Shown one piece after another: positions 1,175-63,914 of a stretch of 64,000 nt of DNA. A model generated the notes under the pieces. The model did not search any database and was not told the DNA's origin. It was given only the letters and a program-made list of their open reading frames with translations. The DNA lies in assembly GCA_963971285.1 (NCBI GenBank), contig OZ020246.1, positions 22,365,217 through 22,429,216 of the forward strand, read 5' to 3'. Both the position numbers and the translations under genes were made by a program. The DNA comes from Astropecten irregularis (taxonomy: Eukaryota; Echinodermata; Asteroidea; Paxillosida; Astropectinidae). Each line of letters begins with the position of its first letter. The stretch's first letter is position 1.

Positions 1175-4100
1175 ATACCTTCAATCAAATCTGGTTTCGT
1201 AAAGGCCCATAGTTCATAGTTCAGGAAAATCACGGCTGAAGCTTTGCTGTAAATGAAGGATGATGGAGTCCAATGACAGACTGGACTGAAATGTAACTGG
1301 GACAAAGGTTCAATGCATCAACTATGATTGAGATACAATGCTGTGTGCCCTGAAAAAAATGCCTCTAATTATGGCATGGGATGGGTGGGCGTGGTCATAG
1401 GGTGTGGCAGGCGAGTCCACACCCACAGACGTCTCGAGACGATTACCTGGGATACCATTCTTTTGTACATATATGTACGTGCTCTTGAAAGAAACTGCAA
1501 CATTAATACGGGAACCCCGAACCAACCAGTCAGAGCTTTGTAGGGTTTGCGTGTCATCTCTGACCTGCCCGCCGGCTCCCACTTGCCTGGTACAATAGCG
1601 CCAATATAGCATGATCGTCCTGTCTCACTACTCGACCCTCCTATTGTCTAGCAGGTGTTTTGCTAGTGAGGAGTCAAAAAATGCCGCGTGAGTCACGATA
1701 AGAATGTCTCAGTGTCCATCTTTCGGCTGACTGAACACTCCTTCCCTTCCCACCAGTTCCTATTCTTAACTTTCTTCCTTTTCCTCCCTCTCTCTCTCGT
1801 CTCTCATTCATGTCGGAGTTGTGGAAATTAAGTCAGAGTTATTTGAAGAACCCGGATGGGGGGAGACGAATGTAGTTGGGATGCATGCAGACTATGTATC
1901 CTGTTTGTGTTACATTGTAGCAGGCAGCCTTAGTAGTGCTAGCAATTACACAGAGGTCCATGTTTGCTCAAGGGTCACAATCTATACATGTTAGTCCAAT
2001 GATGAAGGACCTCATCCCTCCCTGGCTCCCCTCACCCCCTTCCGTGCTTCTTCTCTTTTTTGTTTGTTGCCGGCGGCTGCTATTTATCTGTTCTCAGTGG
2101 CATGATAGCCATTAGGGTATTGGGGAGGGGTGAGGGGGGGTGAGGAGGGGGGCTTACAATGGGAGCTGAGATTGGTCATTGTCTCTTGGCACGCAATGGG
2201 TGAAGTTGGGAAGAAGTGGAGCTCAGGGTGTGTTGCCTTATATGGCCCACTTGGCATCACACGGGATGTCATCCTTCATGTTCAATTGTAAATAAGCTGT
2301 CTTTCCATGTAACATACTGAACAATTGCCAAGCAGCATCATTTCTTGGCAGGGTCAAAGATGGTGGTGTAAAGGACACTTTTTTGTTTTATATCCAAAAT
2401 CCATCACAATCTTATTTCTAGTTCTTTTGGTTTTGGACAGAGTCAGAGTAATGGAGCACAGGCAATGCCTTACTTGCTCGTTTTGATCAAAGTATAAGGA
2501 TTTTGCCATTGAAAAATGCAAAGTGTTCGATTTTTGTGGCTTTAGAATTTGGCCAAAATGCATCTTAACTAGTTTGGGCTGTTATTTCAAGTTTATGCAG
2601 ACAACAATTTCGTGTCATTTTGTCCCAAGTGCCCTATTTATAACTTATTGTATATTTGGTCGTGGGTATGATTTTTTTCCCCACTTCCTGCAAGCATGCA
2701 TGTAAAACACATTCAAATGATGTTATCCAATTGGTCACAGTAATAATCAGTTACAGACTACAGAGCCAGTTCTATTTTATGGCAACAGTATTTTGGTTTT
2801 CCTTCCCACCGAAGTTTTATATCGCATCTCTCTGAATGCTTGTCCTAAGATGCTTTCTAACCATTCCTCTTTGAATACCATCCATGGGACTATGGGAGCT
2901 GATAATTTATCTCTCCAGCAACTCAGAATTCTTTTCTTTCTAAATTTCGGCAGTCCTATAATCAGCTTTGACGATATCTGTCGTCTTTGTGTGTTGGGAG
3001 CTTTGTATAATGTCCAAAGGCTGTAGTGATGGTGACCTGATTGTCCAAGGATTCAAGAATAATTCCAGTTAAGCTTGTCTTTTAAAGAGTGGCATGGATT
3101 TGTACGTAGGTGAAATGAATCCTGAGGGTCGTGTAGAATTCATATGAGACATGTATGTTGACCCAGAAATAAACTGGAATGTGAATATTTTGGCTATATG
3201 AAATTTATATCAGTGAAAAGTGATAATACCGGCACAGAAGCTGGTTACAATACAGAGCTGAAGGAATAGAGCAAATGTTTTTTAGACGTCAGCTGACAGG
3301 ACATTGGGCAACTTACAGTAGGGCATCACCCCATACAGTGCACAAACTGCACATGTATGACCACCAAACATTTTCCAAGGCTTTTCTATCCATCAACTGT
3401 AATTCAGTCATTTATGTCGTAAATTATTCAAGTAATAAAGTCAACAAAATTTTGTTTTTAACTACTATAAAGGAGGGAAAGAAAGTTTGAAAATGTTTTT
3501 TTTTCTGTAGCTCTAGGAGTTCATGGAGGCTATAAATGCCTCGGACCATGCTGATCACATAACAAACCTAAGCCACCACCCCATTCTAAAACGTTGGAGC
3601 CTGGTACCAGAGGAAATTACCAAGCACTACCATGGAGCTACTAGCTAGGAAAGTGGAGTGTGGAAAGTTTCTGAAGCATCTGATCTCGTATTCGTGGCCA
3701 TCTCCGATAAGTGCACATGATACTTATAGAGTGCAATGCGCATGCGTGACAGCCAATGGCGACAGCCAGATAGTGGTCATAAAACTGAGCTCTTTGTGTT
3801 GCGGGACAGTTTCGGCAGTGTTCATAAAACTTTGAAGTTGGGAAGTTCGATCTACTTCTCTTCCTACATGTCCTAGCAGCTCCTTGGTACTACGTTACAT
3901 ACAGTATTGTACATGCCATTCCAGTCTTGTTCAAAGTACAGTGTACTTAGATGACTAATATGTACAACGTACAATGTACGTCATACATGTTGCTCCATTC
4001 TGCTATTGCATGCAATGCCATAAATACCTCCATAACCACCAACTTGCATCATTGATCTTTGTATTGATGTGTAAATTAGTTCTTTGTGGTTTCACACACA

Positions 4101-25300: not shown

Positions 25301-25907
25301 GTCGGCCATAGTACTTTTGTCTACAAAATAGTAATACCATACAAAGGCCAAAACAAATTACATAATAGACTTTGTTGGGTGAGTGCATTTCAGCTCCCAA
25401 AAAGGCAAGTCCTAGTCTTTGTGATGCACTCGCCATACAGCGAGAGAGCGTCTATCACATGTGTGCAGATTTCCTGATTAGTGATGAAAGCCAACCCAGC
25501 ACTGACTGCTCTAAGTTTTGACCAATCAGGGCGCATCTACTATCGTACCATTTGGCGAGTGCGTCTATCACTTAGACTAGCTAGCTGCTATGCGACGCGC
25601 GGAATTGACCAATCAACATCCTCAATCACGATTTAGACGGAAATGTTCTCAAAACAGATCTGATTGGCTGATGTGCCGCGTTGCATAAAATTTGCATGCA
25701 CGCATGTATCAGACATTCGTACGTAGTGGCATGGAGTAGAATGGGTGATACTCAAGACTAGGCAAGTCCTATTATTACTATTTATTCTTTTTTCTTCAGA
25801 TTTGTCTGTACTTTGCCCATTGAACTTCAAGAGTCTTGCTCTGCCTGTGCATCTTTCAAGTGAATTTTCTTTGATTTTAATCCCTTGATCTTGTCCACCC
25901 TATGCAG

Positions 25908-26243
25908 CCTTGGAAGGATATCACAGCATCTGGGAAGGACTTCATAGCCAAGCTCCTGGTCATCTCTCCAGGTGAGCGTATGCTGGCATCGGAGGCCCTG
26001 AAGCATCCCTGGATCATCACCAACGCTGCCCAGTCCAGCCTGAAGAACCTCCACCGGTCAATCAGCCACAACTGGCTCAAGCGGACGTCCACCAAGAGCC
26101 GGTCCACCAAGTCTGCCCGCTCCACCAGATCAGCTCGCTCCGTCAAGTCCAACAGATCCAATAGATCCAACAGGTCGAACAAGTCTGACAGGAACAAAGT
26201 GCAGTTCAATGAATTAACAGATCTGACCAAAGAGTACAAGAAG
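25908..26243 (+). CDS. PSKH1: PSKH1-like serine/threonine kinase, C-terminal exon (partial gene)
   Basis: The acceptor TTGTCCACCCTATGCAG ends at 25907 and the donor AAG|GTACAGT starts at 26244, giving 336 bp, 112 codons, phase 0 on both sides. The exon opens with PWKDITASGKDF, goes on with the end of the kinase domain (PGERM with the conserved subdomain XI arginine, then LKHPW), then NLHRSISHNWLKR and a basic Ser/Arg tail (STKSARSTRSARS, then SNRSNRSNRSNKS) and ELTDLTKEYKK. From memory, vertebrate PSKH1 has the same order: LRHPWVV, MKNLHRSISQNLLKR, then STKSAQSTRSSRSTRSNKS. That tail is specific enough to name the family with good confidence. PSKH1 belongs to the CaM-kinase group and in vertebrates sits on Golgi and nuclear-speckle compartments; location here is inference. 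The catalytic motifs must be encoded upstream and were not found in this window. If the donor is not used, the frame ends at TAA 26283-26285. Confidence 0.88.
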
Positions 26244-26318
26244 GTACAGTATTTAATTCTCTCTCGCTCTCTTTGGTTGCATTAATCCACAATCAAATAC
26301 TATATGTGTACCTCCACC

Positions 26319-31653: not shown

Positions 31654-31785
31654 GAACAAAGATAATTGACTATTGGGGTCACCACCAACGTAGAGCTGGA
31701 TTGCTCAGTTGGTAGAGCGCCTGTACAGTATTCAGGAGGTCGCTGGTTCAAATCCGGCTCCAGTCAATTTTTCTTTGGTCACTTT
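31654..31785 (+). repeat. tRNA-derived SINE, best-preserved head
   Basis: After GAACAAAGATAATTGACTAT comes a tRNA-like stretch at 31693-31765: A-box TTGCTCAGTTGGTAGAGCGC and B-box GGTTCAAATCC, closed by GAGCTGG/CCAGTC-like ends. It continues with TTTTTCTTTGGTCAC. It is not scored as a tRNA gene because the anticodon arm is irregular and the sequence recurs with the same non-tRNA flanks at 7553 and 17100. Confidence 0.7.
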
Positions 31786-39309: not shown

Positions 39310-39489
39310 CTACTTGTATATGAAAATCAGATCTTGACCCATGAATACCTCTTGTCGTTCTTACTGTGCATGATTGTGAAGAAATGAAAGAGAGAAAAAA
39401 AAATTGCTTTCAAATTAGACACAACGGGACCGGGTATACCCAATGAATACAAACGTGGGATCTGAGACAATGCATGGATGGTGATCTGT

Positions 39490-40840: not shown

Positions 40841-41030
40841 TTTTCTCCAAGTTTAATCCAGTCTCCGCTGATAGCATTGTAGCAAGACATGACATGTACA
40901 CCTTGGCTGTCTATGGTTAAGTTGAAGTGGACCGATATACTGACGTTGACTTGCACTGCATCACCGCAGGTCTCAGGGGGGACTCCCCAGTCATCGGTAT
41001 TGATTGAGCATACGCCCTCTACCAACACAC
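40841..41030 (-). CDS. Secreted protein gene, unit 2, VLVEGVCS exon
   Basis: Acceptor TATTTTTCAG (ends 41031), donor AAAA|GTGAGT after 40841, phase 1 in and 2 out, 190 bp. It reads GVLVEGVCSINTDDWG, then PPETCGDAVQVNVSISVHF and MSCYNAISGDWIKLGEK. Its three cysteines and the VLVEGVCS start match exon 45674-45851, as do both phases. Without splicing the frame would stop at TGA 40837-40839, so it could instead be terminal. It carries NVS and NLT glycosylation sequons, as expected for a secreted domain. Confidence 0.8.
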
Positions 41031-41337
41031 CTGAAAAATAAACAACATGAATGCAACTGGATGGACCGCGATGACATTTATTTTATTTATTTGTTCCAAT
41101 ACTGCGTGCGTGTAATGGCCATACCGGCACTACCACGGTTTGAGGGCCTATACTGTCACATACTGTGAAACATACATAATGATAAAGAGATTTAAGTGTG
41201 TACGTTGTATGTGGCAAAATGGAGTGGAATGGTTGATATTATTCGAAATCTTGTTAGTGGGACACGGGACGGCTTCATAGCTAAAACGAAATACCCAATT
41301 GTATTTGACAAAAGTTAATTTCCAGTTTAGTCCTTAC

Positions 41338-41582
41338 CTTGATTACCCCATGGCCAGTTGGGATCACTTGGCGTCCGGCAGGCCATGATGTCAGTCAAGA
41401 AGTCTGGGTTTGGTACACTCACAGAGTTACACAGGCTATCGCTAAGATGCCACTCGTGGCCTAAGTGCACTGGGTCATCGCTGATAGAAAACCCGATGAC
41501 ATCTGTATCTTGACACATAATCGCCTCCTTGCTCACGATGGTTGACAATATAGTGCAACTACCGGAAAGTATTTTGTTCAGC
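41338..41582 (-). CDS. Secreted protein gene, unit 2, main ~80-codon exon
   Basis: Acceptor AATCATTTTAG (ends 41583), donor CAAG|GTAAGG, phase 2 in and 1 out, 245 bp. Contents: LNKILSGSC, AIMCQDTDVIGFSISDD, WHLSDSLC, FLTDIMACRTPSDPNWPWG and NQG. Cysteine positions and the motifs CQ-D-VIGFS-DD, W-L-D-C, FL-D---C and PNW-WG-QG line up with exon 46425-46666. Confidence 0.85.
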
Positions 41583-41914
41583 CTAAAATGATTTATGAAA
41601 AACATGGTCTCCCGTGGTGTTAATGTAATTATTAGTTAACGCACTATGTAAACTGTCAAATTCAATTTCTCAATTCAACTATTTGAAGTAGCTTATAGGC
41701 CTACAACAAATTTTCCGCCCACTATATATTGTGTCAGCAGTAGTACATTCAACATCATGTAAAAGCCTTTGGTATTTGGAAACATTGCACGTTGTAGAGT
41801 GGGGACATCATATTGGTATGAACGACTTTTAGAAGCATTAGAAGAGATTGTGATGACAATAATTAGTGAACCAGACCGAATGATTAATGTCTTAATACAA
41901 ATACAGTGCTCCTC

Positions 41915-42090
41915 TTAATATGTCAAACGGAGTGAGAGATCTCTCTGACTGACATCTCTCCATCTAGTTTTAGGCCGGCCACGTCTGCGCTTCCCATGAG
42001 TTGGTTTCCATAGGTATAGCAGTTTTGGCGTTCTCTCATTGCCTATGCGTTGCACATGACCAAACCACTTTAGCCTACGTTTTATTAAAG
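41915..42090 (-). mobile_element. LINE C-terminal tail fragment (RTE/CR1-like)
   Basis: On the - strand the frame reads RRLKWFGHVQRIGNERTPK, LLYLWKPTHGKRRRGRPKTR, WRDVSQRD and ends with TAA at 41915-41917. The pattern LKWFGHV...GRPKTRWRD is the well-known end of ORF2 in many RTE-type and related LINEs. Only this tail is present and it lies in the intron between exons 41338 and 42205, in the gene's own orientation. Confidence 0.75.
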
Positions 42091-42204
42091 GTGTTTGTCA
42101 GTTGACAAACGCGCGCTTAAAAATAAATAAGGAATTTAACTGATATCAATGATTTTGTCCGCAATACATGTATAGTTATTCAGAAACGAATGAAATGAAA
42201 TCAC

Positions 42205-42241
42205 CTCATCCACCCACCGCCATCTTCGATCTGGATGCAAG
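42205..42241 (-). CDS. Secreted protein gene, unit 2, GGGWM micro-exon
   Basis: Acceptor TTCTCTCCAG (ends 42242), donor GATGAG|GTGATT, 37 bp, phase 1 in and 2 out. It reads (S)CIQIEDGGGWM and then joins R. Length, phases and the DGGGWMR end are the same as in the micro-exon 47596-47632. At 37 bp it is too short for ordinary gene finders. Confidence 0.82.
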
Positions 42242-42411
42242 CTGGAGAGAATAATGTATATAAAATAAAAAATAATTAAGTTAATATGGACAGGCAAATA
42301 TCTCAAATTCGTATTCTTAAAATGAACAGGGGTATTTATATATTATTTTATAAATATTCGTGTGTTAGGTTATTGTAACATGCCCTTATGCAATACCCTC
42401 CCCCTGCGCCT

Positions 42412-42516
42412 CCCCCGCCTCGCCTCCCCTCCCCTCCCCCTCGCCTCGCCTCGCCTCGCCTTGCCTTGCCTTGCCTTGCCTTGCCTTGCCTCGCCTTGCC
42501 TCGCCTTGCCTTGCCT
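42412..42516. repeat. Pentanucleotide microsatellite (CCTCG/CCTTG)n
   Basis: About 20 tandem five-base units, mostly GCCTC then GCCTT. The - strand frame gives KARRGKARQ repeats, which is not a gene. Confidence 0.9.
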
Positions 42517-42666
42517 TTAGAGATGAGTTGTCTTGCTTGATTGTTTACTCGCCTGATTGGCCCCTGCTTGCATGCTTGCTTGTTTGCTTCTTTCATTCTT
42601 TATTTGTTAGTGTTTAATAATTCCCTCAATTATTTGTACATTATTTATGATGAGGGTTGTACGTAC

Positions 42667-42765
42667 AGACACCGGTTGGATAGGTAGATGGACCACACAC
42701 CCGTTTGATATAATAATAAGCATCCCCTACAGAAGTACCAGCATCGATGACCGCTTGGCATGACT
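42667..42765 (-). CDS. Secreted protein gene, unit 2, CQAVIDAG exon
   Basis: Acceptor TTAATTATGCAG (ends 42766), donor GTCT|GTACGT after 42667, phase 1 in and 1 out, 99 bp. It reads (E)SCQAVIDAGTSVGDA, YYYIKRVCGPSTYPTGV. CQA-IDAG, YIK-VC and PST-P match exon 48670-48774. A second possible donor (CCAACCG|GTGTCT) would remove three codons and keep the phase. Confidence 0.8.
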
Positions 42766-42988
42766 CTGCATAATTAAAAAAAAGTAACAAATATGAATAT
42801 AACGATGGGCAAAGTGAAACTGATAACAATGTCATCGCAAATATTCTTACAATCTCGGTGCTTTTCAGAACCACTCAACTCGCGAGTTCTGTAGGCGTCA
42901 ATAAATATTCACTCTGTTTGCTATCTCCATTACATTATTTGAAGTAAATCCAGTGAATCAAAAAACGGAAATGAACGTTGTTCTTTAC

Positions 42989-43069
42989 CGTAATATTCAC
43001 AGGAGTAGGTTGTACCATTGCCGGGATGACACATGCCTCCACGTTTACAAGGATTAGGGTTACATGGAC
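42989..43069 (-). CDS. Secreted protein gene, unit 2, half-EGF exon
   Basis: Acceptor TTAACGACAG (ends 43070), donor TTACG|GTAAAG, phase 1-1, 81 bp. GPCNPNPCKRGGMC, HPGNGTTYSCEYYG. It has the first four cysteines of an EGF domain (PC-P-NPC start), but where EGF would have C5 two residues after C4 there is tyrosine. Same form as exon 49531-49614. Confidence 0.85.
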
Positions 43070-43465
43070 CTGTCGTTAACAAGTGTATGCAAACATGTTT
43101 TAATTGAATTGAATTTGTAAAGAAAAAAGGTCACACTGTACGCACATGACCTGTAACATGCGATTTTTGTTGTTACAATTTATCATCCGACGGTTTTTAA
43201 GAATTATCGTTTTCGTCAATAATAAACAATTAGATGTGTTTTATTTTCAATATCTACGCTAAATTATTTTGCGGACAAGGCAATTATAATGTTGCCATTT
43301 GGTGACGAAATGTACTAATTAAAACTACTGCTGCTACTCACATCAAAATATAAAATTCATCCTAAGTGTGGAATTTAACGTGCATACATTGAATAAAGAT
43401 ATCTTATTATATGCCAATCCTCTGGACAAAATCTTGAATGTATAATTGGTGTGCATTACAGGTCT

Positions 43466-43829
43466 TTAAAGGTAGTATCATACTTTGGTTTTTAACAAAG
43501 AAATACATATTCATGTGCAAAAATATCAAGAAAGATACAATAACAGTCACCTGTGAAAATTTCAGTCCAATATGGTGCCCACTTTTTGAGAAAACAGTGA
43601 AAACAGCCACAGTATTTCTTGAGTCTTTTCTCTTTTATTTTTGATCTTTTAAAAGATCAAACAGATTTTCGGTCGTTGTTCTACTAATTTCTGGATAAAT
43701 ACACCATTTCAGGCGGTACAATTTTAACGGTATGTTTCTACCACCACCATCTTCATACCCTGTAAGTTATACGTAAATCTGTGTACATTTCTGTTTTGGT
43801 CTCTTACCAAAGTATGATACTACCTTTAA
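43466..43829. repeat. TTAA MITE, third subfamily, full copy
   Basis: TTAAAGGTAGTATCATACTT at the left and AAGTATGATACTACCTTTAA at the right pair perfectly. One half of the inside (GGCGGTACAATTTTAACGG, TATGTTTCTACCACC) matches the other TTAA MITEs; the other half is specific. It lies in an intron of the secreted-protein gene. Confidence 0.92.
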
Positions 43830-43938
43830 GAAGGATGGGGTAGAAATTTAACTGCGTTTTATGCCGCCGTGTTCCAATTTTCTTCCACAAGTGAAATTGG
43901 AATCATTCAAACAAATTTAAGTAAGTGTCTTTGAATAC

Positions 43939-44028
43939 CGTTATATTGACAGGTGTATGTTTCTTGAGTTCCGTTAATGACAGGGCGGCAGGTATGTCCA
44001 AGCTGACATGGTGAGGACAGACATGGAC
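43939..44028 (-). CDS. Secreted protein gene, half-EGF exon between the units
   Basis: Acceptor AGATACGACAG (ends 44029), donor AACG|GTATTC, phase 1-1, 90 bp. GPCLSSPCQLGHTC, RPVINGTQETYTCQYNG. Four cysteines with the C1-C4 EGF spacing, C5 and C6 absent. It has a sequon (NGT). It takes the place that the full EGF exon (50152) has before unit 1. Its incoming phase (1) does not fit the outgoing phase (2) of exon 45674-45851. Confidence 0.8.
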
Positions 44029-44304
44029 CTGTCGTATCTACTTTGACCCAAACAAATCGTCTAAAATCGTCCCTGCAAAGAGCGGAGAGTGAAATATTAC
44101 TTACTATGGAGGGGGTGTCTTTTTCTAGTAGAGGAAAAGTAGAAATGTTGAAGAATGCATTTTACAAAATTGCTCGACCTGCTAGTTTGATAGGAGAAAA
44201 ACCTACTCTTACATTTACATCAAACCGGACAAACACCAATTTTGGTCTTTAAGAAGAATTTCAATTTTAGGTACAAAACGGTTTGTAATGATTTATAGCA
44301 CGCA

Positions 44305-44940
44305 CAGGGCTCGACACTTACTATACGGTGGCCCGGTAGTAAAAGTTTCGGTGGCCCGATCGGGACCCTCCCCTTAAAAAAAAGGCCCGATTAACCAAAA
44401 ACCAAAACCATGCCCCTTTCACAAAACTTAACTTGCTGGCCTGCGAAATTTTGGCAGGCATCGAGGCAGTGAGTCTAGGACGCACAAAGTATGGTTTTGA
44501 TGTTCAGCACGACGTTGTGGTCGACGTGAACGACAATGTAAAGCTCAATTACCCGCACTGGCCTGCATGCACGGACATGTAATTAAAGTGCATGTTAAAT
44601 GGCTGTGTCTGACTTCAAAAGTAACGCATGCGCAGTGTGTTTTCCCTCGTTATCGGGGGGGGGGATTTTACAGGATTGCCAAGACGTAACAGACAGGTCA
44701 GTGCGTACGTCCATGTACTGTCCATGTAATGGTACTGTACGTGCGTGCGGGTCAGTGAGGGTAATCGGTTCGAACACACCAACAACGTCGTGAACCACTA
44801 CTACTTGACTGCACACGTTGTACGTACGGTGTACGTGTGTACAAGCACACTCATGTACGGTCTCTTAATGTGCTTAACATGTACAGTACTTGGTTCAAGA
44901 CGTTACAGTAACTGCTTGAAAAAGTTAGTGTCGAGCCCTG
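44305..44940. mobile_element. hAT-like non-autonomous element
   Basis: CAGGGCTCGACACTTACTAT at the left, AGTTAGTGTCGAGCCCTG at the right. The CAGGGCTCGACA tip is typical of hAT elements. The interior of about 600 bp has no transposase. A clear 8-bp target duplication was not seen (AGCACGCA against CCAAGCGA), so the edges have decayed or the class is wrong. Confidence 0.65.
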
Positions 44941-45673
44941 CCAAGCGATTATAAATGAGAAGCGAAGTATATACATATCCGGATAAAAGTTTATTTGATG
45001 GAATAATTCTCACAAAAATAGCTTGAGATATAAATTTGCGGATAACGATTTTCAGTACACTACTGGGCATGAGAGATCATAATGGTTAAAGGGTTCATGC
45101 AGTGTTTTTTCAGTCAGGTTATTTGATTGCCTTCATACAGAGAATATACTGACAGATAATGAATGGCAAGTCTTATTTTGGTTTCAAACCCGCTTTTGGT
45201 TTCCCTTTGAATGGCTTTGCAAAATGGGGGATGTTTATGCATACTCATGTAGGGAACCAACAGCCAAAATATAATGAAAAAACCTAAACAAAATTAATGA
45301 AGAGGCAAACATGACCCACAGAAATGGTTGGTCAAACAAATTACAACACCAGTTGAGTGAAAGGAACATATTCAGCACAATAAAACTCATTGAGGGGGAA
45401 AAGGTCTGTCAGAAAACCTATTAAACAACCCTAACTTTTTGTGCACAAAGCAATTGGATTACTGCTCTCAGTTACCCAGATGACATCACAGTTTTGCTCA
45501 TGTATATGGAAATTCTAATTAGCATACAAACCAAAAACCTGTTGTTAACCTTGAAACAGTGTGAGGAAGTGGGTAAAATCAAAGGCCCATGTAACAATTT
45601 ATTTTTGGCACATGTTCAAGCCATAATATACCTATTGCATAGACCCTTTAACTAATAATCACTCACTACGTAC

Positions 45674-45851
45674 CACTGACTAAGCTGGATCCATTCTCCA
45701 CTGACATTGAGACAGTACAGCACATATGTGCCGTAGTCGTTACTGAAGTGGAGTGATATGTTGACGTGGACATTCGCTGCACTCCCACATGCATCAGGCG
45801 ATATTTCACCCCAATTGACATCGGTTGAACATACGCCCTCTACCAATACCT
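45674..45851 (-). CDS. Secreted protein gene, unit 1, VLVEGVCS exon
   Basis: Acceptor CTTATGTTTAG (ends 45852), donor CAGTG|GTACGT after 45674, phase 1 in and 2 out, 178 bp. (E)VLVEGVCSTDVNWGE, SPDACGSAANVHVNISLHF, YVLYCLNVSGEWIQLSQ. Three cysteines at the same places as exon 40841-41030, and the same phases. Two sequons (NIS, NVS). If the donor is ignored the frame adds WYVVSDY and stops at TAG 45652-45654, which would end a first gene here. No exon with the needed phase (2 to 1) was found between this and 44028. Confidence 0.8.
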
Positions 45852-46424
45852 CTAAACATAAGATGATTGATAACATTTTGGTCACATGAGGCCTAAGATT
45901 TATTCTTTGGGCCTATTTATAAATCATTGAGATAAGATGTACATATCACAATAGGGCAGTGTCACGGTACGTACAGAAGAACGTTTGGCAAACGAATAGC
46001 AAACGGAAATCTATTGTTTCCAGTAACTACGGAGCTCCACGAGTGCTTTTTATCAAGACAATAACATAATTATTTCTTACCGCCAATTCGATTTAATATG
46101 GAGCGATGTATTATGAGGCCAAAGACGATTTCTCACTTCGCTTAGTAGTCTTGTTGAGATAATAATCGAGACGTACTTGAATAATACACTGCATAGTTAT
46201 CATGCACTTGCTTCGATCGTCTGTCAAGTCGTTATCAATGAATTGTATAGTTTTATTAAATTGAGGACAAGTAGGCCATAATTGGTTTACCCGTTATTTC
46301 AAAAACGTCTCGATAATCTAGAATGTCCGATGATACCCAAGCCTATACCTATTTTGTTTACTACCATGATCATAGAAGTTATACTTTTTACGGTCTCTTG
46401 TGAAAAAACAGATGCAGATCTCAC

Positions 46425-46666
46425 CTTGAATACCCCATGACCAATTGGGCAAACCTGGTCTCTGGCAGTTGGCAAGGTCCACGAGGAAGTCTAGCTTGGT
46501 AGTCAGAGAGCCACACACTCCGTCATGCAGAACCCACTGTTTTATAGGCTTTGTACTTCCAAAATCATCTTGCAGTGAAAAACCGACTATATCTTTTTCC
46601 TGACAGGCAATCTTCTCTCTACTCCAGGCTGATGATAAGTGTTTGTAGCATGCTCGACGATACAAC
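46425..46666 (-). CDS. Secreted protein gene, unit 1, main ~80-codon exon
   Basis: Acceptor GTACCACTTTAG (ends 46667), donor CAAG|GTGAGA, phase 2 in and 1 out, 242 bp. (R)LYRRACYKHLSSAWSRE, IACQEKDIVGFSLQDDF, WVLHDGVCGSL, FLVDLANCQRPGLPNWSWG, IQG. Four cysteines matching exon 41338-41582. Joined to the micro-exon it gives GGGWMRLYR, which looks like the GGGWT--QR start of fibrinogen-related domains, but the rest does not show the usual fibrinogen signature. Confidence 0.85.
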
Positions 46667-46789
46667 CTAAAGTGGTACAAAGGTACAACTTATGATTTTT
46701 GTCTATTCCATCGTTTGTGTTTATTACTACATAATGCACGATTTTCAAATGCAACCTTTGCTTCGGTTAAAACCCCTTTCACAACAGGC

Positions 46790-47456
46790 CTACGTAGAGT
46801 TGCGTAGTGTTGCGTATGTATCGTGTACGCCGAAATAAGGCTGCGTACTCAAGGTGGGCCTACGTAAATGCGAGTAGTGCGATGACGTATGGTTGCGTGC
46901 CTCGTGCAGATGCACGAATAATATAATTGGCGTACAGGCGCGTAGGATTGCGTATAACAGACGTAGGGTAGCGTACTATTGCGTGGGCATTGCGTATTAG
47001 TAGCGTAGCGTTGCGTAAAGACTGCGTACGTCCGGTGTCCAGTGCTCTACGCAAAGAGTACGCGAAAAAATTAAACATGATCAATTGTTTGCGTACATCT
47101 CGCGTACTCCTTGAGTTGCGGAACCTTTTTGAGGGGTTTATAATGTTATTCATGTTATCTATTCAAATACTTTATTTATTATTAATTAATGTTGTTATTT
47201 ATATTTATTTATATTTATGTATTATTTATATTTAATTAATTCAATTAGTTTGGAGAGCCCCTTTGGCAAATTTAATTTCTTTTGGGCAATCCTTCGGGAG
47301 CTTATTGGATTCTTATGTAGTTATTGTATTTGTTTTTTCCTGTTCTGCTGAGAGTGTTAATTGTTTGTCCTAGACTAGCGTAGGAACAGCGTAAAAACAG
47401 CGTAGGACAGCGTATAATTCCCTACGCACGCTACGCAACTGCTCCGCAACTGCTCA
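46790..47456. repeat. Region dense in TGCGTA/TACGCA motifs
   Basis: At both ends (46790-47110 and 47380-47456) GCGTA or its complement recurs every 6-12 bases, mostly GCGTA on the + strand, with TACGC near the right edge, suggesting an inverted-end element with a plain AT-rich middle. CpG is far above the local level. No family recognised. Confidence 0.5.
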
Positions 47457-47595
47457 TAAGGATTGCCTATAAGTTTTCATATCTGAATCATAAAACGTGT
47501 GCCAATATTTATAAGAAAGGGGTAACTATTAATACTTAGAACGCCAATGGAATTTCCAGTCATATGTTCACAGAAATACATTGAAAGACAATCAC

Positions 47596-47632
47596 CTCAT
47601 CCAGCCGCCACCATCACTGCCCAGGCGACAAT
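47596..47632 (-). CDS. Secreted protein gene, unit 1, GGGWM micro-exon
   Basis: Acceptor TTTTTGTTCAG (ends 47633), donor GATGAG|GTGATT, 37 bp, phase 1 in and 2 out. (D)CRLGSDGGGWM, joining R. Same length, phases and last nine bases as 42205-42241. It is held between two introns loaded with mobile DNA. Confidence 0.82.
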
Positions 47633-47721
47633 CTGAACAAAAAGCAACAAATAGGGATGGTTAACATGAAGAGCTTAGTTTCAGAAACTTGCAAAACACC
47701 CATGTGGCGAAAACAGTTCAC

Positions 47722-48115
47722 TAAAGGTAATATCATACTTTTGTTTTTGTCAAAGAAATGCAGATTCATGAGCAAAAATATCAAGACAGATACAGTGGCG
47801 TCGCCAAGGGGGGGGCCAGGGGGGGGGGGGGGGCACGTGCCCCCTGGAAAACCTCGTGCCCCCCCGCGTGCCCCCCCATTTGAGATTTGGGTTGGTGAAA
47901 AAAAATATAATATATATTATTGTAGTGCCCCCCAACAATTGCTAGTGCCCCCCTTGTGCCCCCCAGACTCAAAAGTCTGGTGACGCCACTGGACAGATAA
48001 AGTAAAAGCCATCTGTGAAATTCCCAGTCCTATACGGTTCAGACTTTTTGAGAAAACAGTGACAAACGCCAACGAAATGTGACTTAATCTTTTAACCTTT
48101 ATTTTTGATCTTTTA
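47722..48115. repeat. TTAA MITE (43466 type), interrupted by a hAT element
   Basis: TAAAGGTAATATCATACTTT followed by GTCAAAGAAATGCAGATTCA and AAAATATCAAGACAGATA, then, after the hAT insert, TTTTTGAGAAAACAGTGACA and TTGATCTTTTAAAGATCAA. This matches 43466-43829 up to about its centre. The rest is gone. Confidence 0.8.
47793..47991. mobile_element. hAT-type non-autonomous element nested in a MITE
   Basis: CAGTGGCGTCGCCA at the left, TGGTGACGCCACTG at the right. Exact 8-bp duplication GACAGATA at 47785-47792 and 47992-47999. The interior has G runs and GTGCCCCCC repeats. The host MITE is continuous once the insert and one duplication are removed. Confidence 0.93.
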
Positions 48116-48669
48116 AAGATCAACCAACCAAACTCAACCCAGTCAACTCAACTACTTTGACTTCGGGCGCGTGCGTGCCATCATAATTATACAAAATGGG
48201 TCGTGTTTTCGTTTAAGCGGCGCGTCTCATAATTTCTAATATAGACAGAATTGTGTAACTTGCAAATCATAATTCAATTGCAAATCATCAGTGTGAGTGC
48301 AAAATAATGTTCTCCACTTGAAATGTAATGATTTATTAGATTTTACAGACGTATCTCTTTTTATATTTTGTATATGCATTACCTGTAGATGTAATATTCC
48401 ACCACGGTTATCTTGTTATTGATTAATTTATGCCAAATTAAACGGCATGTATGTCAGGTATGCATGTTTACAGTGTACTCCAAAAATACAAATTAATTTA
48501 ATATCTTAGAAATACCAGTTGTTCAAAATCATTGTAAATGCTGTTTTAATGACTACTGGTACTGCAACATGCATTGCATTCCTCAATGCGAGGTCTGTAT
48601 CTCGTTTCTGCGTTTCACTTCACTTCTCAACCAATCCTCATCAACGAAAACAAAAGAGGTTTCACTCAC

Positions 48670-48774
48670 CGACTTCGATAGGATCTGTAGAGGGATCACA
48701 CACTGGTTTGATGTATGCAGATTGTATTCCAGTAAAAGTGGCAGCTCCAGCATCGATGATTGCTTGACATGTCC
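48670..48774 (-). CDS. Secreted protein gene, unit 1, CQAIIDAG exon
   Basis: Acceptor TTTATCTCATGCAG (ends 48775), donor GTCG|GTGAGT, phase 1-1, 105 bp. (G)TCQAIIDAGAATFTG, IQSAYIKPVCDPSTDP, IEVG. It has two cysteines. CQA-IDAG, AYIK-VC and PST-P match exon 42667-42765. Confidence 0.85.
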
Positions 48775-48888
48775 CTGCATGAGATAAAAATCAAATGTAC
48801 ATTGCTTGCCATTGTCTGTTTATAACATACAATGATTCAGTGTGGAAGAGGCTCTGTTGTCACAGTATGCAGTTGATGTGATTTGTCT

Positions 48889-49022
48889 AATGGGAGACTT
48901 TTGGAGAGTCGGTCTTGAGTAAACAGCGCACGCGCAAACCATGCTAGCGCAAAAATAATTTGTGAACATGCGCGCGTGCGTGCGCTGTTGACTCAAGACC
49001 GACTCTCCAAAAGTCTCCCATT
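48889..49022. repeat. TGGGAGACTTT foldback, copy 2
   Basis: AATGGGAGACTTTTGGAGAG and CTCTCCAAAAGTCTCCCATT are exact inverted ends. The arms continue with TCGGTCTTGAG/CTCAAGACCGA and GCGCACGCGC-rich sequence. Confidence 0.88.
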
Positions 49023-49116
49023 GGCCATATTGTACCGTTGCTATCTGATAATGCCTTGAGTTTTGAAGCCCGAGAAGTTCAAACTCCTTCTCATCTTTCC
49101 TCGTAAGCTCCATGTC

Positions 49117-49256
49117 AATGGGAGACTTTTGTCTTTAAGTCAACAGCGCACGCGCACCGTGCACAACAGCGCAAGCGCAAAACAACGCGCGCATGCTCAC
49201 AATTAGCGTGCGCGTGCGCTGTTGACTTGAAGACCGGTTCTCAAAAGTCTCCCATT
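49117..49256. repeat. TGGGAGACTTT foldback, copy 3
   Basis: AATGGGAGACTTTTGTCTTT at the left, GTTCTCAAAAGTCTCCCATT at the right. The left arm has lost a few bases. Only 94 bp from copy 2. Confidence 0.82.
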
Positions 49257-49530
49257 GGTTCTTACATAGAAACACGTGTGATGTCTTTTTGTTTTAATTC
49301 TTTGGCCTTTATTACTAACAACATCTCCGACTAACTTTATAATCATAAAGATTGCAGGAGGAATGTGATTCCAGACGCGGTATAGACCAAGTTGAAAACA
49401 TATCTGAAATCTGCTCCTGACAAAGTGAGCTGTTGTTTTACATGGAATTGATAAATCCCGATCATTAAAAAAGACAGAACTCTGCATGACGCTAACAGAA
49501 AGAAGGAGAAATGATGAATATCGTTCTTAC

Positions 49531-49614
49531 CGTAATATTTGCAGTAATATGTCCCAGTTCCATTGTCGGGGCGACATGATGCTCCAGTATCACAAGGGTT
49601 GGGGTTACACGGAC
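49531..49614 (-). CDS. Secreted protein gene, unit 1, half-EGF exon
   Basis: Acceptor GTTTATTCCACAG (ends 49615), donor TTACG|GTAAGA, phase 1-1, 84 bp. GPCNPNPCDTGASC, RPDNGTGTYYCKYYG. Cysteines C1-C4 of an EGF with tyrosine in place of C5. Very like exon 42989-43069 (PCNPNPC, then YYG end). Confidence 0.87.
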
Positions 49615-50151: not shown

Positions 50152-50274
50152 CGTATACATCACAATGTTGTCCAGAGAACTCTGTCCTACATTGACAGGT
50201 GTAGTTGGTGTTGGATCCATTCACGGGATGGCAGGTGCCTCCGTACTGACACGGATTGGGAATACACGGCTCAC
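50152..50274 (-). CDS. Secreted protein gene, complete EGF exon
   Basis: Acceptor TCTTCACAACAG (ends 50275), donor ATACG|GTAACG, phase 1-1, 123 bp. GEPCIPNPCQYGGTC, HPVNGSNTNYTCQC, RTEFSGQHCDVYG. All six EGF cysteines and the GG-C and FSG-C signatures are there, so this is a whole EGF-like domain coded by one exon, the normal arrangement for shuffled EGF modules. There is no D-x-D/N calcium-binding start. It follows the proline-rich exon with matching phase. Confidence 0.93.
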
Positions 50275-53970: not shown

Positions 53971-54138
53971 CAGGTGGTGCTGGTGGTGTCTGACACTTTC
54001 TTGGACAATTCTTCTGTATTTGGTCCGCGGCTTGTTTCATCCAGTGATAGGGGTTAGTGTTACCAGGATCAGGCGGAGGTGGTGGACCGAAGTAACATGA
54101 CCTCATCGCGCCCTCCACGGGGTCATTCATCATAAAGA
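53971..54138 (-). CDS. Secreted protein gene, proline-rich exon 2
   Basis: Acceptor ATTCCAATAG (ends 54139), donor CCTG|GTAAGT, phase 1-1, 168 bp. VFMMNDPVEGAMRSCYFG, PPPPPDPGNTNPYHWMKQ, AADQIQKNCPRKCQT, PPAPPG. The first residues complete the hydrophobic signal segment begun in exon 1. Then follow a proline stretch, a short amphipathic part and a second proline stretch that may act as a linker to the EGF. Three cysteines. The + strand copy at 57497 has serine for the third cysteine and two more residues (Ala-Pro) before the end. Confidence 0.92.
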
Positions 54139-54514: not shown

Positions 54515-54578
54515 CAATAACGGCCATGACAATTGACGACACAGCCCAATGCTGTGACACCTTGGCAATCCAGTACAT
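54515..54578 (-). CDS. Secreted protein gene, exon 1 (start and signal peptide)
   Basis: ATG at 54578, donor ATTG|GTAAGT after 54515, 64 bp, phase 1 out. MYWIAKVSQHWAVSSIVMAV-I, a short basic start and then a hydrophobic run that continues into exon 2 (VFMM). It fits a signal peptide. The ATG choice is supported by the identical arrangement in the inverted copy at 56814. The 5' flank up to about 54880 is conserved with the copy, so the 5' UTR and promoter lie there. Confidence 0.88.
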
Positions 54579-56813: not shown

Positions 56814-56877
56814 ATGTACTGGATTGCCAAGATGTCACAGCATTTAGCTGTGTCGTCAATGTTCATGGCCGTTATTG
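56814..56877 (+). CDS. Inverted paralog, exon 1 (start and signal peptide)
   Basis: ATG at 56814, donor ATTG|GTAAGT after 56877, 64 bp, phase 1. MYWIAKMSQHLAVSSMFMAV-I. It differs from the - strand copy at four residues, all hydrophobic exchanges within the signal segment. Intron 1 begins with the same bases (AATTTGTCCAAACCCAATCT) in both copies. Confidence 0.88.
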
Positions 56878-57202: not shown

Positions 57203-57496
57203 GCGTGTATTATCATCCCCCAAATATTTAGAGGTTGAATGTCATTCAAGTTTATTGTATAAATATATTACATGATCCTTGATTTTCTTTTTTAGTCTTC
57301 GCAGTGAATTTATACTATGTTTAATTCTTCTGAATATCGTTTTTAAATGTGACTTTTGACTCAAAAGTTTTATTCAAAAGTCCCTGGTTTGGGAGGGGGG
57401 TAAACGCAAAACGCAAAGTGAGATATGACTTCCTTTTATGACATTGACTTCCTTCTAAGTGACTGTCTATTTCCATTTCTTCTTATTTTCCAATAG

Positions 57497-57670
57497 TCTT
57501 TATGACTACTGACCCCGTGGAGGGCGCTATGAGGTCATGCTACTTCGGTCCACCACCGCCGCCTGATCCTGGTAACACTAACCCCTATCACTGGATGAAA
57601 CAAGCCGCGGACCAAATACAGAAGAATTGTCCAAGAAAGAGCCAGACACCACCGGCACCAGCACCACCTG
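57497..57670 (+). CDS. Inverted paralog, proline-rich exon 2
   Basis: Acceptor TTTTCCAATAG (ends 57496), donor CCTG|GTAAGT, phase 1-1, 174 bp. VFMTTDPVEGAMRSCYFG, PPPPPDPGNTNPYHWMKQ, AADQIQKNCPRKSQT, PPAPAPPG. The frame is intact and near-identical to 53971-54138 at the protein level (MN to TT, C to S, plus Ala-Pro). No EGF or unit exons for this copy were found in 57671-64000. It may be a gene running off the window or a copy limited to the first two exons. Confidence 0.88.
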
Positions 57671-62011: not shown

Positions 62012-62258
62012 AATATTCATTATTTTTTACTGTCATTTTAAATCTTGGGTTTCTTTGCCTGGATACTTGCTGAATTTGTATTGTTTATTATCATTTAAGT
62101 TCCCAAGGGTCAATGTGTTTAAGAAAGAGTTTTATAAAATTTCTGTTGCCATGGAAACGGTTAATCATAGTAACCAAATATACATGTATTATGTGTATTC
62201 TTTGTGACTTTTGTGAATTTTGTTGAATATGTTTTAAAGGGTAGTTTATTCAAGTGAT

Positions 62259-63914
62259 ATTGAGGATGCATGGAAATTATGGAGTTGCAGTTTTTATCAG
62301 GGAATCACTTAAGCATAGAATACTCTTCGCTGACAGTATGAACAAAGTTGAATCGCTCTGGTTGGAAGTTAAGCTGCCATCAACGAGACCCCTTGTCATC
62401 GGTTGTGTATATCGGCCGCCAGACATTGAGACTTTCTTTGAGGACTTTTCTGTTGTTCTTGATGATGTCATGAATATGTATAATTCCAGATTCATGCTAG
62501 TATTGACCTGTATGGGCGATTTTAATGTTGATTATTTAAAGTCCAGTTCAAAGTATTGGTCAAAATTAAAGCAGCTTTTTAACAATTTTGCAATGAATCA
62601 ATTAATCACTTGTCCTACAAGAATAACTCAACTGAGTTCTACTTGCATAGATCATATATGGACCAATCGTCCTTCTATGTACACTCAATCCGGAACTAAC
62701 GACAACAATCTTAGCGATCATACTTATTTTTACTGTCCGTAAGTCTGCAAAAATCCTAAAAGAGCACAATATATCCAGGCTCGTTCATTCCGGAAATTTA
62801 ATAAACACATTTTTAATTTTGACCTTAAACAGCAATCACTATTGAAGCTCCTGAAGAAATTGCCAGTTGGGAAAGCTTTTGGCATGGATGGGATTAATGG
62901 TCGTTTCTTAAAATCTGGTGCCAGCATTCTTGCCAAACCGCTAGCTGTAATTTTTCAACTAAGCTTAATGACTGGTATTGTTCCTAACGATTGGAAATTG
63001 GCCAAGGTTACCCCAATTCATAAAGGGGGAGATGTTCATGATCCTAATCAATATAGGCCCATTTCTGTAATCTCAATTGTTATGAGAATCTTTGAGCGTA
63101 TCATCTACCAACAATTATTCCATTTCTTAACAGAGAATAATTGCCTTGCCCAGGAGCAGTCGGGTTTCAGACCTCTTCACTCCACATATACGGCTTTACT
63201 TGATGTTTCTGATTATTTGCTCAAACAGCTGGATATTGGTAAAATTGTTGGAGTAACATTTTTGGATCTTCGCAAAGCATTTGACATATTAATCACAATA
63301 TTTTGATTCGGAAATTACATACCTTGGGTGTTAGAGGTCTGGAGGTCGACTGGTTCCGGTCTTATCTTAATGGGAGGATCCAAATGACTAAAATAGGAAA
63401 TTCTTTATCTAGCAAAACCTACATCAACTTTGGAGTTCCTCAGGGAACTATACTGGGCCCTTTATTATTTACCATTTTTATCAAATATATTACGACTGTG
63501 ATTGATCATACTAAAATTGTACTTTATGCTGACGATACTGCATTGTTTTATCCTAGTAAAGATGTTCAGCAGATAAATCTCTTTTTAAATCATGAATTGC
63601 AGAAAAACAGACTTCAACTAAACATTTCCAAGTCAAAAAGCATGTTAATTGGTTCTGCCCAGAAGCTTGCTAGGTGCTTACATCCTAATATTGATATTTT
63701 TGTTGACGGTAACTGCCTGGATCAAATCACCACTTATAAATATCTTGGTGTACATATTGACAGTAAAATGAAATGGACTGAGCATATTGAGCATATTGAA
63801 AAAGCTGTTTCTAAGAGAAAAGGTGTCCTGAATAGACTAACAAATATTTTACCTGTGTCTACCCTTAACTTTCTCGTCAAAAGCCTTGTTCTGCCATGTT
63901 ATAATTTGCATTAA
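62259..63914 (+). mobile_element. LINE copy (Jockey/CR1-like), endonuclease and reverse transcriptase pieces
   Basis: First part (62259-62742) is the second half of an AP-type endonuclease: GVAVFIRESL, VYRPPD, MGDFNVDYL and the catalytic SDH near its end. After an in-frame stop at 62740 the same frame runs on (RSFRKFNKHIFNFDL) and meets the start of the RT (GKAFGMDGINGRFLKSG), so the usual linker is lost by deletion. RT then shows YRPISVISIVMRIFERII, EQSGFRPLHST and LDLRKAF. A frameshift at about 63285-63295 moves it to a second frame (NFGVPQGTILGPLLF, YADD at 63525-63536, TTYKYLGVHID). It breaks off near 63914 before the C-terminal tail of the type seen at 40125. Dead copy, 5'- and 3'-truncated. 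Confidence 0.9.

Follow-up and report, generated by a model that had tools for sequence, protein, structure and literature searches.

Fibrinogen-related proteins (FREPs), ficolins and tenascins (PF00147) are among the described systems closest to the gene reported here, and the intelectins (X-type lectins) likewise have a fibrinogen-like GGGW start followed by a different C-terminal part. The gene lies on the minus strand of a 64,000-nucleotide stretch of the Astropecten irregularis genome (contig OZ020246.1, positions 22,365,217 to 22,429,216), which we call the window and to which coordinates refer unless another contig is named. Its predicted product carries two copies of a cysteine-rich module, the domain of which resembles FREPs, ficolins and tenascins in its N-terminal quarter but differs from them in having more cysteines and a multi-exon structure. 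Echinoderm FREPs are reported from coelomic fluid (PMC12119288), one of them reportedly increases after lipopolysaccharide (PMC2702171), and an expansion of such proteins was reported in a sea cucumber (PMC13228809). A fibrinogen-like start and expanded echinoderm families with fibrinogen-like parts are already known; the unrecognised element is the C-terminal remainder of the domain.

We favor, with moderate and no higher confidence, the reading that this locus is functional and encodes a secreted, two-domain modular glycoprotein, in which a fibrinogen-like start is joined to a cysteine-rich remainder and which would have an extracellular recognition role. The anatomy of the predicted gene, the homology of the first quarter of the domain, the size of the family and the constraint in two clades can be read from the sequences themselves.

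The gene and its duplicated module

An earlier note on this DNA described ten exons forming a five-exon, 14-cysteine module that is duplicated within one protein. All ten were found at the claimed places on the minus strand, each preceded by AG and followed by GT. The two sets indeed share the phases 1-1, 1-1, 1-2, 2-1 and 1-2 and, counted on the translations, 4+2+1+4+3 cysteines. Exon lengths (set 1/set 2) are 84/81 for A, 105/99 for B, 37/37 for C, 242/245 for D and 178/190 for E. The encoded domains of 199 and 201 residues are 44% identical end to end (92 of 209 columns; E value of 2e-52 in that single comparison), and the duplicated exon sets are not due to chance. While the exons and cysteine counts of the note stood, its 14-cysteine unit did not: the module is better described as an EGF stub with four cysteines (exon A) followed by a ten-cysteine domain of about 200 residues (exons B to E and a short tail). 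The description as a duplicated, cysteine-rich and probably extracellular module is supported, but its extent had to be enlarged by the domain tails (in exon F1 and in the terminal exon), the stop codon and three 5' exons.

The splice model, predicted from splice sites, phase, open frame and paralogs, comprises 15 exons encoding 607 residues, with consistent phases, in frame throughout and ending at a stop codon. The three additional exons lie 5' of A1, and the gene model begins about 5 kb further upstream. The predicted order is a hydrophobic leader, a linker, a six-cysteine EGF domain, a four-cysteine EGF stub, domain 1, two stubs, domain 2 and the stop. The exons are as follows, with the supporting evidence after the semicolon.

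54515..54578, minus strand: exon 1, ATG and hydrophobic leader (MYWIAKVSQHWAVSSIVMAVI); donor GTAAGTGA, start codon predicted
53971..54138, minus strand: exon 2, linker with a proline run and three cysteines (NDPVEGAMRSCYFGPPPPP...CPRKC); splice sites
50152..50274, minus strand: exon 3, complete six-cysteine EGF domain; Pfam EGF match
49531..49614, minus strand: exon A1, four-cysteine EGF stub preceding domain 1; AG/GT borders, same stub in paralogs L039-L043
48670..48774, minus strand: exon B1, domain 1, start of the fibrinogen-like YCDxxxxGGGW part; AG/GT borders, NF040941 and fibrinogen comparisons
47596..47632, minus strand: exon C1, domain 1, DCRLGSDGGGWM(R); AG/GT borders, NF040941 and fibrinogen comparisons
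46425..46666, minus strand: exon D1, domain 1, unrecognised cysteine-rich part; AG/GT borders, genome matches
45674..45851, minus strand: exon E1, domain 1, VLVEGVCS...GEWIQL; AG/GT borders
43939..44072, minus strand: exon F1, domain 1 tail (WDDFRRFVWVKVD) and four-cysteine EGF stub; similar exon in L039, L040, L041 and L016
42989..43069, minus strand: exon A2, four-cysteine EGF stub preceding domain 2; AG/GT borders
42667..42765, minus strand: exon B2; AG/GT borders, NF040941 scan
42205..42241, minus strand: exon C2 (SCIQIEDGGGWM); AG/GT borders, NF040941 scan
41338..41582, minus strand: exon D2; AG/GT borders
40841..41030, minus strand: exon E2; AG/GT borders
39327..39363, minus strand: terminal exon, domain 2 tail (KNDKRYSWVKI) and stop codon 39329-39327; acceptor ATGCACAG, in frame

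The stop in the 37-base terminal exon coincides with the end of the domain, and the tail encoded there aligns with that of domain 1. The predicted protein contains 41 cysteines and ten N-glycosylation sequons. Its four most hydrophobic 15-residue windows all fall within residues 10-27, a leader hydrophobicity that fits secretion.

The best Pfam EGF (PF00008) stretch comprises residues 81-114, inside exon 3, and covers profile positions 1-32 of 32; a piece containing exons 1-3 and A1 reached 26.9 bits, above the cut-off of 21.5. In contrast to this full match, the stubs A1, F1 and A2 are shorter, with four cysteines each, and lack the last two of the six EGF cysteines. The F1/A2 pair matched profile positions 1-23 of 32 with 14.5 bits (E value of 0.043), below the cut-off, and the only scan of A1 included exon 3 as well. 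Since paralogs L039-L043 have a similar stub, it is not the product of decay of one copy.

The two parts of the domain

Sixteen candidate domains (two from the window, 12 from region loci, L016 and L027) were considered for an alignment. Three of them were dropped, L040 because its exon B has a stop and L057 and L058 because no exon B was found in them, leaving the two window domains and eleven from paralogs; the tail is included in only five of the 13 rows. Nine of the 19 invariant columns are cysteines.

The domain opens with 45-47 residues, encoded by exons B and C, that resemble NF040941, the fibrinogen-like YCDxxxxGGGW domain; 11 of the 13 members matched it at E ≤ 1, with the best E value (1.6e-10) in a paralog. 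In the first window domain and in five of six singly scanned members, the first 43-47 residues cover positions 1-45 of 46 of that model, and L053 covers positions 25-44 only. Two of these six, L027 (36.3 bits) and L056 (40.8), pass the cut-off of 30 bits and the other four fail. NF040941 is a library model for bacterial and archaeal proteins, whereas the window domain continues for about 150 residues past its match; a scan of bacterial and archaeal genomes gave 15 pattern matches and no confirmed relative.

Fibrinogen domains of the same genome were taken from six loci (L044-L049), of which five were considered (L047 has a stop) and three aligned. Compared with these three by hhalign, the 13-domain profile matched in columns 1-51 only (probability 93, E value of 3.4e-7). 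These comparisons indicate that the domain start is homologous to the N-terminal fibrinogen subdomain, C...V-C-D...GGGW, and the earlier suggestion of a comparison with fibrinogen-related folds proved apt, the first 48 residues matching the fibrinogen domains of the own genome. A profile search of PDB sequences led to fibrinogen beta/gamma, techylectin, ficolin, angiopoietin-related protein and tenascin (E values of 0.11-1.1), all within positions 1-52, and three kinds of unrelated protein (0.38-0.74) were among the same 33 matched sequences. Intelectins were found neither among these 33 sequences nor in the search with exons D to tail, which returned none, no direct comparison with them having been made. 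Single-member matches to INI1, GH115_C and IsdC (E values of 0.083-0.25) were rejected as chance, as was a SMARCB1 chain.

The earlier remark that the module was not recognised as a named family holds for the module as a whole, which gave no match along its full length in Pfam, NCBIfam or PDB sequences; it does not hold for exons B and C, which match NF040941, or for exon A, an EGF fragment. The remaining approximately 150 residues matched nothing in the Pfam, NCBIfam and PDB sequences searched, and exons D to tail retrieved no PDB sequence at E ≤ 10. Conservation is lowest directly after GGGWMR, where exon D begins (27% mean identity versus 44-53% elsewhere); this stretch varies in length from 17 to 28 residues. 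The module was not recognised in any literature title or abstract opening found.

At least 150 canonical fibrinogen domains above the Pfam cut-off are present in the same genome (150 of 313 candidates scored; contigs C1, C15, C25, C30 and others, L044-L049 included). They are mostly matched near end to end in one frame, and all but about seven are without a stop. With so many canonical copies at hand, the whole domain could also be a very divergent yet complete fibrinogen-related domain, in which exons D to F encode the other subdomains, changed past recognition by sequence. The common start (C..I..G...Y.I.P...V-C-D...GGGW), the similar total length (about 200 versus about 213 residues) and a short strand-like tail, WVKVD, placed like MKIREVL of the own-genome fibrinogen domains, speak for this explanation. 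However, the central and C-terminal fibrinogen subdomains were undetected by sequence in D to tail, for which hhalign gave a probability of 0.03 percent (E value of 0.94) in a weak comparison with a profile of only three close sequences, versus 93 for the first 48 residues. Furthermore, the 13-domain alignment has 10 or 11 cysteines versus 5 or 6 in the three aligned fibrinogen domains, and the module domain spans six exons, unlike the mostly single-frame canonical copies. We therefore consider a complete fibrinogen-related domain unlikely.

The family in the genome

The genome searched comprised 475.7 Mb in 168 contigs, and counts of exon D are lower bounds. With D1 and D2 included, exon D was matched 51 times at E ≤ 1, and 39 and 36 of these matches remained at E ≤ 0.01 and E ≤ 0.001, respectively; a divergent query yielded additional ones, for example at C18:12576812. 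The 51 matches are spread over 11 contigs, with 23 on C11, and include eight groups of two modules and two groups of three (neighbours on one strand with less than 13 kb between them). Exons A to F recur in the same order in L039, L040 (the copy with the stop) and L041, and exons A to E in L042 and L043, where exon F was not found. At L016 (C11:867 kb), the F exon with domain tail and EGF stub occurs twice in tandem (positions 2989-3114 and 3128-3217). No intronless copy of the whole domain was found with the 201-residue query, which gave 79 matches at E ≤ 0.001; none of them covers the domain, and those crossing exon borders have stops or overrun by a few residues.

The leader/linker exon 2 (DPVEGAMRSCYFGPPPPP...HWMKQAADQIQKNCPRKC) has at least 134 genome matches at E ≤ 0.01 (150 of 161 candidates scored), for example at C20:9.86-10.32 Mb. 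For 22 of the 51 exon-D matches, such a leader match lies at most 60 kb upstream on the same strand, corresponding to 12 distinct leader exons (best 36 of the 134 leader matches used). Many exon 2 matches are far from any module, and exon 2 may therefore be the shared leader of a larger secreted family. One C20 copy (L060) has no module exon in the 9.8 kb covered, and the shared leader was rejected as a route to function. In the window, inverted copies of leader exon 1 (56814-56876; 81% over 21 residues) and exon 2 (57493-57660; 95% over 56) lie on the plus strand, head to head with the gene, and no module exon was matched on that strand anywhere in the window.

A tree of 31 of the 51 exon-D matches (30 with loci, plus L054) separated a first-domain type (8 rows, support 100/99) from a second-domain type (4 rows, 98/93). 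Both types are adjacent at three loci, C9:22.41 Mb, C22:14.21 Mb and C11:2.55 Mb. Because each of these holds one of each type, the internal duplication is older than the gene duplications at the three loci.

Selection was analyzed as the mean pairwise ratio of nonsynonymous to synonymous substitution rates (dN/dS), rows without a scored E exon being dropped for E. The ratio was 0.57 for exon D (8 rows) and 0.50 for exon E (6 rows) in the first type, and 0.47 (4 rows) and 0.25 (3 rows) in the second type; both domain types of the window are constrained, with purifying selection in two clades. In the C11 25-Mb cluster, to which one C29 row was added, the ratio was 1.00 for D (9 rows; bootstrap interval 0.59-1.67) and 0.44 for E (8 rows). 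Exon D was less constrained than E in every group, with overlapping intervals. Diversifying selection on exon D is not claimed: the pairs L029/L028 and L029/L031 gave 1.13 and 2.00, but the group value was 1.00.

Proposed recognition role and alternatives

In the mechanism that we propose, duplication of exons A to F, a block that is symmetric in phase (1-1), would have produced the two domains, and whole two-domain genes would have multiplied afterwards. Each domain would open with the fibrinogen-related N-terminal part (C...IKP...V-C-D...GGGWM), and the cysteine-rich C-terminal part of about 150 residues would replace the rest of the fibrinogen fold. The GGGW part may be a base that stays constant, and exon D, whose variability peaks just past GGGWMR, may supply the surface that binds; avidity would come from the two domains in each chain. 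We infer that the protein is secreted, forms disulfide bonds, binds a ligand and acts in immunity or at a surface; by likeness to FREPs, recognition is the most likely role.

We put forward more tentatively that the domain is an undescribed chimera, which kept the N-terminal fibrinogen base and acquired a new cysteine-rich fold in place of the part that binds the ligand. It would occur twice per chain in the window gene and in about 50 modules overall, as a second recognition repertoire beside the canonical fibrinogen domains. If true, an uncatalogued extracellular domain family would be added to the fibrinogen-related world, with the fibrinogen domain recut and refitted via phase-1 exon blocks. 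Should the family prove to be a recognition repertoire, it would be a defined two-domain echinoderm system with a directly testable variable loop, the start of exon D.

Several observations weigh against the favored reading. The window domains score 14.1 and 19.8 bits with NF040941, below its cut-off of 30. Pfam Fibrinogen_C is matched weakly (best E value of 0.0085; 4 of 13 members at E ≤ 1): two of five rescanned members reached 15.9 and 12.9 bits and three had no match, the cut-off being 22, and the two-module protein scored 13.3 bits. When domain 1 alone was compared with PDB, the top match was SMARCB1, an unrelated chromatin protein (E value of 0.084), followed by tenascin (0.13). A hidden, divergent fibrinogen fold within D to tail is possible on these sequences. 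The total of 41 cysteines in the predicted protein is odd. In the tree, some adjacent modules are closest to each other (L017 with L018, 100/99; L019 with L021, 99/97), and modules were therefore duplicated more than once. Finally, the dN/dS values of exon D (0.57, 0.47 and 1.00) are not above 1, so that the diversifying selection to be expected of a surface used in recognition is no more than hinted at.

A structural protein of matrix, mucus, adhesive or egg coat, with modules serving assembly and not recognition, is an alternative. EGF and fibrinogen-like parts occur in matrix proteins such as tenascins, too, and the many cysteines, the ten sequons and the purifying selection in two clades are in line with such a protein. 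Since about 50 modules, many of them clustered, and a fast-changing loop are a better fit to recognition families, we regard a structural role as less likely. That the window copy is a decaying pseudogene is very improbable: at least one paralog (L040) is interrupted by a stop, but the window gene has 15 exons without a stop or broken splice site and a dN/dS of 0.40 over D and E versus paralog L010, and the pseudogene reading was rejected on this intact frame and a dN/dS below 1.

Other features of the window and the genome

Three further features were found in the window.

25881-26285, plus strand: exon-like frame, end of a protein kinase domain (19.8 bits, below the Pfam cut-off)
31694-31766, plus strand: transfer RNA (tRNA) gene, tRNA-Thr (AGT)
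62245-63914, plus strand: retroelement reverse transcriptase frames (RVT_1, E value of 6.9e-19 for 63285-63914)

Elsewhere in the genome, COX1 on contig C168 translates normally when AAA=N, ATA=I, AGR=S and TGA=W, as in echinoderm mitochondria, and the adjoining tRNA block is ordered as in sea stars; the code marks the animal as an echinoderm, and the gene order as a sea star. A second COX1, at C131:32162-33484 (L050), has no in-frame stops and lies near a COX2-like frame with a CNACH motif; it looks bacterial, as from a contaminant or symbiont contig. A partial COX1 with seven in-frame TGA codons, located within a large contig at C25:9951047-9952018 (L052), is probably a nuclear copy of mitochondrial DNA.

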